This document shows, piece by piece, positions 24,725-25,315 of a stretch of 30,272 nucleotides of DNA (its first letter is position 1; every line of letters starts with the position of its first letter). A program made the position numbers and the translations under genes. The stretch comes from a virus, in IMG/VR virus record IMGVR_UViG_3300043313_001173, positions 1-30,272 of that record, one strand, 5' to 3'. A model generated the notes under the pieces. It saw only the letters and a list, made by a program, of their open reading frames with translations. It did no database searches and was not told where the DNA came from.

Positions 24725-24753
24725 TTGACACGACGGTTCGCCCGTGATATGAT
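24725..24753 (+). promoter_or_regulatory. Strong promoter of the non-coding segment
   Basis: TTGACA at 24725-24730, 17 bp spacer ending CGTGA, TATGAT at 24748-24753: the closest to consensus of all promoters here. Transcription should begin near 24759-24761. No start codon or ribosome site follows. Confidence 0.85.
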
Positions 24754-24759
24754 TCGGTT

Positions 24760-25306
24760 GTAAGGGAAAAGCACCGGAGAAAGAGGGAGCCCGCCGGACG
24801 ACACGGGCCGCTCCGGGAACAGAGCGAAGAGGACGCGGGGAGCGCTTCCCCCGCCCGAAGGCGCACGGAGCCAGCGAAGATCGCACGCCCCGCAAGGGAC
24901 ACGGCCTCGACCCGCTGGTGGTGCTAACCGATCGGACGGGGAAAGGGCTCCCCGCCCTCAAGGCAGCGGGGCGGACGCCCTAGGTCGCGGGGTACGGATG
25001 CGACCCGATCGGCCAGTCCCGATCGACGAGTTCCGTCCCGCTGCCCCTCCCATTCGCGAGCAGCTCAGAAACGGCGGCTGCCAGGAAGCTCCACGTGACT
25101 CCGGTTGCAAGATCGGGTCCCGAGCGACCGAAGGCCAGACACTGTGGCTCGCGGACAGGAGGGATCGGCACCGATGTCGTGCAAGACGGCCGCGCCGATC
25201 CCGTCCTGAGGGTGCTGGGAAAATCGGAAACTCCCGAGCGACAGAAGCCGTCGAATGTGCGGTGGTCGTGCGCACGGATAAGCCCGTCAACGCCCCAGCA
25301 CCCTCA
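24760..25306 (+). ncRNA. Large structured non-coding RNA candidate
   Basis: About 550 bases between a strong promoter and the next promoter (25316) have no convincing gene. The strand can fold into: AGCACC 24770-24775 with GGTGCT 24920-24925; GCGGGG hairpin 24835-24854; CGGGGA hairpin 24937-24954; a 14 bp helix 24962-24975 with 25032-25045 (one G-U) that encloses two side-by-side hairpins (24983-25005 and 25006-25025); a 14 bp helix with one bulge, 25156-25169 with 25194-25208; and an 11-13 bp helix 25209-25219 with 25294-25304 that would close the 3' end. Large ornate phage RNAs such as GOLLD and ROOL are known, but I cannot say it belongs to either. GATC richness inflates some palindromes. 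The ORF at 24998-25342 has no ribosome site and runs into the next promoter. Confidence 0.7.
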
Positions 25307-25315
25307 AGGCGGGTA

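Follow-up and report, generated by a model that had tools for sequence, protein, structure and literature searches.

Large non-coding RNAs have been described in several groups of phages, and what the Pleft, GOLLD and ROOL RNAs do for a phage is an open question. The cluster A mycobacteriophages L5, D29 and StarStuff produce an abundant, stable, processed non-coding RNA of ~500 nt, the Pleft RNA, and the region encoding it has a toxic effect on M. smegmatis (PMC5712189). Rhodococcus phage WC1 has comparable non-coding loci with high transcription (PMC10986025). GOLLD RNAs are large and multi-branched, are encoded by phages or prophages, and have no known function; many members exceed 800 nt, and a ROOL example has a length of 659 nt (PMC12286853).

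The locus described here lies in a soil phage record of 30,272 bases (IMG/VR IMGVR_UViG_3300043313_001173, positions 1 to 30,272); this whole stretch of DNA is referred to below as the window. Its genes for terminase, portal, scaffold, major capsid and tape measure are followed by an HTH regulator, a Cas4/RecB-like exonuclease, a small protein with an H1-like tail, and numerous small genes, and almost all are encoded on the + strand. An actinobacterial host is probable because the nearest matches of the portal protein (up to 42%) are portals of Thermobifida, Streptomyces and Arthrobacter phages. Searches with the H1-tailed protein or Cas4 found no prophage relatives, and a search of the 30-kb record, which may be a fragment, found no tRNA. 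The predicted RNA unit sits between the exonuclease and the H1-tailed gene, as an initial annotation of this DNA had described. The features of the locus are as follows, with RNA ends and helices as predicted:

21564-21896: HTH regulator
23788..24678, + strand: Cas4/RecB-like PD-(D/E)XK exonuclease (phrog_1218, PF12705), upstream neighbor of the RNA unit
24723..24753, + strand: promoter of the RNA unit, TATTGACA, with TTGACA at 24725, a 17-nt spacer, TATGAT, and an extended -10, (TGA)TATGAT
24760..25314, + strand: predicted structured non-coding RNA of ~555 nt, 5' end placed from the promoter and 3' end from the closing helix
24789-24795/25308-25314, + strand: closing helix that joins both ends (p 0.90), in the minimum free energy (MFE) and centroid structures
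24796-24800/25202-25206, + strand: helix with its 5' side within 24789..24800 (p 0.82)
24829..24959, + strand: long rod-shaped domain with an inverted repeat, 24835-24858/24932-24955
24962..25045, + strand: 14-pair helix, 24962-24975/25032-25045, that encloses adjacent hairpins at 24983-25005 and 25006-25025
25046..25162, + strand: stem 25046-25061/25147-25162 with an inner hairpin; CCUCC at 25046-25050 pairs with GGAGG at 25158-25162
25162..25201, + strand: hairpin GGAUCGGC...GCCGAUCC
25174..25209, + strand: 11-codon frame MSCKTAAPIPS, AGGAGG 11 nt before its ATG, inside a hairpin and probably due to chance
25207..25306, + strand: 13-pair helix, 25207-25219/25294-25306 (p 0.99), that encloses three short hairpins
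25314..25345, + strand: promoter of the H1-tailed gene (at 25316), TATTGACA-18-TAGGGT, which begins at the RNA end
25390..25749, + strand: small Cys-rich protein with a lysine-rich, H1-like tail, downstream neighbor of the RNA unit

How does this unit compare with the known RNAs? Pleft RNAs are ~500 nt long, have no conserved ORF, and are directly preceded by a strong TTGACA-type actinophage promoter, and all of this is true of the window unit. The D29 region, too, folds more stably than its shuffles (z -3.9). The differences lie elsewhere. First, there is no sequence similarity between the window and D29, and parts of the window model find no match in D29. Second, the D29 RNA is encoded at the right end of the genome, on the opposite strand. 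Third, the 3' part of the D29 RNA looks tRNA-like, and the window RNA has no such part. Fourth, transcription and host toxicity have been measured for Pleft, whereas the window RNA is a prediction from sequence. The tRNA-like end in D29 is itself unusual; it lies near the 3' end of the Pleft region on the minus strand (D29 46900-49127, L132) and reads GGGTAGCT ... CCAGGTTCGATTCCTGGCTACCCA, and ARAGORN makes no call on it.

The window unit resembles GOLLD in being large, multi-branched and phage-encoded, and differs from it in being shorter and in lacking an Rfam match at E ≤ 1. GOLLD RNAs are often found near tRNA genes, whereas the window record contains no tRNA. The resemblance to ROOL lies in the size range and the phage location, and the difference in the lack of both an Rfam match and a tRNA island. 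An Rfam search of the unit, GOLLD and ROOL included, had been proposed as a check; it returned no family at the gathering threshold or at E ≤ 1. GOLLD and ROOL are thus excluded as far as Rfam models can exclude them, and the initial annotation was rightly cautious in seeing no feature that assigned the locus to either. In some other actinophages (L016, L017, L006, L012 and L013), too, genes for non-coding RNAs lie downstream of an exonuclease of this family. These islands differ from the window unit in consisting of tRNAs and short tRNA-like elements, and no similarity to the window RNA was found in them.

Several promoters in the window form one phage class, and the RNA-unit promoter is among them. 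TATTGACA occurs seven times, compared with 0.19 expected, and six of the seven occurrences are at promoters. Promoter sites with TATTGACA include 24716-24733, 25307-25324, 27351, 29130 and 29878. The promoters at 24725 and 25316, which are 591 bp apart, have an 18-nt block in common, AGGCGGrTATTGACACGA. The 24725 promoter had been called the best in the window; the TTGACA-17-TATGAT arrangement of a strong sigma-70 promoter is there, with 11 of 12 positions matching, but the promoter is not uniquely best because those at 21619 and 29880 tie with it. What sets it apart is the DNA that follows. Between 21500 and 30200 there are seven further promoters of this form, each with an ORF start 4-44 nt past its -10 element; 24725 is the sole one without a nearby ORF start. 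Codon usage marks the first open frame past it as non-coding, and the start of the next real gene lies 636 nt off, beyond a further promoter. No intrinsic terminator was seen on the + strand. Some of the phage promoters contain inverted repeats in their spacers, e.g., CACGAGACCTTTTCTCGTG within the 25316 promoter; such repeats are candidate operators of the HTH regulator (21564-21896).

The stretch from 24760 to 25314 codes for no protein. The large genes of the record served to train a codon-usage score, which is negative or near zero in all frames across ~24680-25380 and clearly positive for the flanking genes. Negative scores were obtained for the ORFs at 24998-25342 and 25095-25319, and for those at 24958-25584, 24542-24961 and 24714-24902 on the minus strand; the minus-strand ORF at 24115-24804 scores near zero. 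One mildly positive score belongs to the minus-strand ORF at 24980-25171, which has no family match. Indeed, a Pfam and PHROG search with the seven ORFs of at least 60 codons found no match at E ≤ 1, and neither ARAGORN nor Rfam calls a tRNA or tmRNA in the unit. The codon-usage and family searches are in keeping with the earlier statement that the stretch contains no plausible gene. The accompanying statement that it has no ribosome site is not strictly true because two start codons are preceded by a Shine-Dalgarno-like sequence: the ATG at 25174, by AGGAGG, and a GTG at 25095, by AGGAAG at a distance of 6 nt. The GTG opens 74 codons with non-coding codon usage.

The predicted fold goes beyond what base composition would give. 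The + strand from 24760 to 25316 folds at -282.6 kcal/mol, with a z-score of -4.56 against 100 dinucleotide shuffles and -4.7 against trinucleotide shuffles (n=200, GATC kept), and its energy excess is the lowest among the 55 windows tested. Some coding sequence in the record also folds well (z -3.3 at position 3000). The centroid is close to the MFE structure, and the ensemble spread is 0.094 per nt, compared with 0.226 in shuffles. Three helices of at least 11 pairs are observed, and dinucleotide shuffles contain 0.27 on average; the fraction of these shuffles that equal or exceed the observation is 0.0025, which bears out the initial expectation that three such helices would be rare by chance. 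A caveat that GATC richness inflates some palindromes accompanied this expectation. The trinucleotide shuffles keep about six of the seven GATC sites and none of the 200 reaches three long helices; therefore, GATC does not explain them.

The three long helices proposed initially recur in the computed fold. The helix 24962-24975/25032-25045 has 14 pairs, including one G.U, and two hairpins inside, and the one given as 11-13 bp at 25209-25219/25294-25304 is present as the 13-pair helix 25207-25219/25294-25306 (p 0.99). The hairpin proposed at 25156-25208 keeps its core (25162-25169/25194-25201), but in the full fold 24796-24800 takes over as the partner of its outer 3' bases (25202-25206). The closing helix and the rod-shaped domain had both been missed. 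By thermodynamics, the RNA should form one compact multi-branched body with paired ends. The model of a promoter-driven, non-coding, structured stretch is well supported; the promoter, the missing coding signal and the fold beyond shuffles bear out in part the first description of a large structured RNA with its own promoter, to which no family is assigned.

Searches for relatives of the unit were mostly negative. blastn found no match in GenBank phages and nothing beyond chance in 46 related virus records and the fetched loci. Single-sequence covariance models were built for the 3' domain (R1) and the rod (R2); neither found a match (R1 in the 46 records, and R1 and R2 in selected loci), and no homologue could be aligned by sequence or model. 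A two-sequence alignment made for RNAalifold proved unreliable. A 16-nt motif occurs twice in the unit (25118 and 25232); when it was searched in IMG/VR, all 10 matches were unrelated. Relatives reached through the major capsid, portal and H1-tailed proteins, and through the proteins flanking the cousin locus described next, yielded no further instance of the unit. Other long gaps in related phages were considered as counterparts, and each proved to be coding when inspected, a tRNA island, or unrelated.

One striking positional counterpart, in a distant cousin phage, L002 (IMGVR_UViG_3300037704_000074), did emerge when related phages were scanned for non-coding gaps. The Cas4 of L002 is 61% identical to that of the window phage, and its H1-tailed protein is ~70% identical over the first 70 residues. 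Adjoining the H1-tailed orthologue is a 674-bp non-coding gap with a GC content of 0.74 against 0.65. A pair of promoters of the form seen in the window lies in this gap at a spacing of 600 bp (591 in the window), with ~565 nt of non-coding sequence between them. An ORF starts within 6-67 nt at four L002 promoters, and the single exception is the one at 8741. The two units stand in reverse order there: the non-coding unit of L002 follows the H1-tailed gene and precedes a different gene with its own promoter. The L002 unit folds with a z-score of only -1.5 to -2.0. Smith-Waterman alignment and shared 8-mers detect no similarity between the two units beyond shuffles, tree edit distance places their folds no closer than shuffles, and the top L002 match of R2, although it falls within the L002 unit (8839-8880), has an E-value of 1.2. 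The setting is alike and the sequence and fold are unrelated; therefore, the setting is conserved between the two phages without detectable homology of the units. Because the cousin keeps a non-coding unit of similar size in the same setting, the locus looks like a real phage RNA gene. The 5' arm of a long helix, GAGGGTGC(T)GGG, is common to both units and is treated as a possible coincidence because the similarity of the units does not exceed that of shuffles. An Rfam match of the L002 unit to PhotoRC-I (E 0.92) was rejected as a chance match.

We consider it likely, with a probability of roughly 60%, that the unit is real and is a free-standing phage gene, driven by its own promoter, whose product is a structured non-coding RNA of ~555 nt. 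Host RNA polymerase would start at the phage-class promoter at 24725, and the transcript would fold into a multi-branched body closed by the pairing of its ends. The RNA would end near 25314, at the start of the promoter for the next gene. It would then act as an RNA, most likely in the early phase of infection, together with the remaining genes of the promoter class.

Could the unit instead be a long structured 5' leader of the H1-tailed gene, an attenuator or riboregulator? Transcription from 24725 would then run into 25390-25749, and folding would set expression. The unit and the gene are on the same strand with no terminator seen between them, and the 11-codon frame at 25174 is leader-peptide-like, with the GGAGG of its AGGAGG paired with CCUCC at 25046-25050. 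Against this, the 25316 promoter belongs to the H1-tailed gene itself and gives it a leader of normal, short length; the closing helix stops immediately short of this promoter. In addition, the L002 unit follows the H1-tailed gene rather than preceding it, and the gene after it is a different one with a promoter of its own. Hence, a leader is rather unlikely.

It is also unlikely that the unit is a non-functional spacer, i.e., a decayed gene or a GC-rich insert between promoters with a structure that is compositional or left over. The lack of an alignable homologue and the unrelated sequence and fold of the L002 counterpart are what a spacer would predict. Nevertheless, the structure exceeds that of both di- and trinucleotide shuffles, a strong promoter has been kept, and nearly equal size and setting have been kept in two phages. 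A further argument against a spacer is that phage genomes seldom retain idle DNA of this length (555 nt).

A DNA-level element, such as a replication origin or a protein-binding or packaging site, would use the repeats as cruciforms or sites and the promoter for transcriptional activation or priming. Such an element would fit with the position of the unit beside a recombination-type exonuclease, with its seven GATC sites and several near-palindromes, and with the fact that both strands fold well. Indeed, the minus strand folds equally well in energy (z -5.4, compared with -4.6 for the + strand); therefore, energy alone does not name the strand. Other properties point to RNA from the + strand. 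Its unpaired bases are 44% A and 8% U. All but one of the pairs in the 14-pair helix are Watson-Crick; the exception is a G.U in the + strand, where the minus strand would have a C.A mismatch. The + strand also has the better-defined ensemble, with a spread of 0.094 versus 0.189 for the minus strand here and 0.128 versus 0.276 in the L002 counterpart. Folding with RNA parameters gives a z-score of -4.6, whereas DNA parameters give only -2.7. Together with the direction of the promoter, these features support a + strand RNA. Moreover, the unit contains no iteron-like array of direct repeats, and GC skew makes no clear turn at the locus, and a DNA-level element is therefore quite improbable. Least probable is an mRNA for a very small protein with incidental structure, for despite the AGGAGG or AGGAAG before both starts, the 74-codon GTG frame at 25095 has non-coding codon usage and no family match, the 11-codon frame at 25174 sits in a stable hairpin, no such frame occurs in the L002 unit, and 400 nt would be left as leader.

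If the unit is a stand-alone RNA gene, what might its product do? One tentative guess, drawn from the analogy with L5 and D29, whose Pleft RNAs are abundant and early, is that the RNA binds a host protein or ribonucleoprotein as a scaffold or decoy. It is similarly conceivable, with most of the weight still on the other side, that the unit represents a new class of large actinophage RNA, unrelated to GOLLD, ROOL and Pleft: a promoter-to-promoter unit that distant phages retain beside the H1-tailed gene, with a sequence turnover greater than that of the neighboring proteins. If so, the fast turnover would be as expected under arms-race selection against a host target. The unit has clear borders, with a promoter at each end and a closing helix, which makes it a convenient test case for the study of large phage RNAs. 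More broadly, the same size and setting with unrelated sequence in two phages suggest that homology catalogues such as Rfam miss fast-changing phage RNAs. A search by promoter pair and absent coding signal may be able to find them.

Several side observations concern neighboring genes and similar loci in other phages. In other actinophages, the stretch 3' of Cas4 and before an ATPase gene contains tRNAs and unannotated, conserved short elements. The stretches are as follows:

L016:5826-6982
L006:6641-7205
L013:6430-7100
L017:3906-4512
L012:6367-7000

The short elements at L016 6398-6489 and L006 6842-6934 are 88% identical over 93 nt, those at L016 6561-6629 and L006 7056-7123 are 83% identical, and L013 and L016 are 75% identical over 144 nt. 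Rfam reports tRNAs alone in these stretches, L016 6420-6700 has no match in GenBank phages, and the conserved short elements may be new tRNA-like phage RNAs. In L042:622-1018, a promoter pair (622 and 988) surrounds ~330 non-coding bases directly after Cas4; this stretch forms very long hairpins (z -4.75) and has no match in GenBank phages. Rather than marking an RNA gene, these hairpins may act as terminators. A CxxCG...GRxxxxGHDAKLK-like motif recurs in small proteins of the window (25390-25749 and 27919-28476) and of L002 (8375-8683 and 6734-7432), and is joined once to an H1-like, lysine-rich tail. Finally, a block of ~75-90% GC with small ORFs lies beside a homologue of the H1-tailed gene at L072:2800-3500 (G031 22300-23000), in a cousin phage with 57% GC overall.
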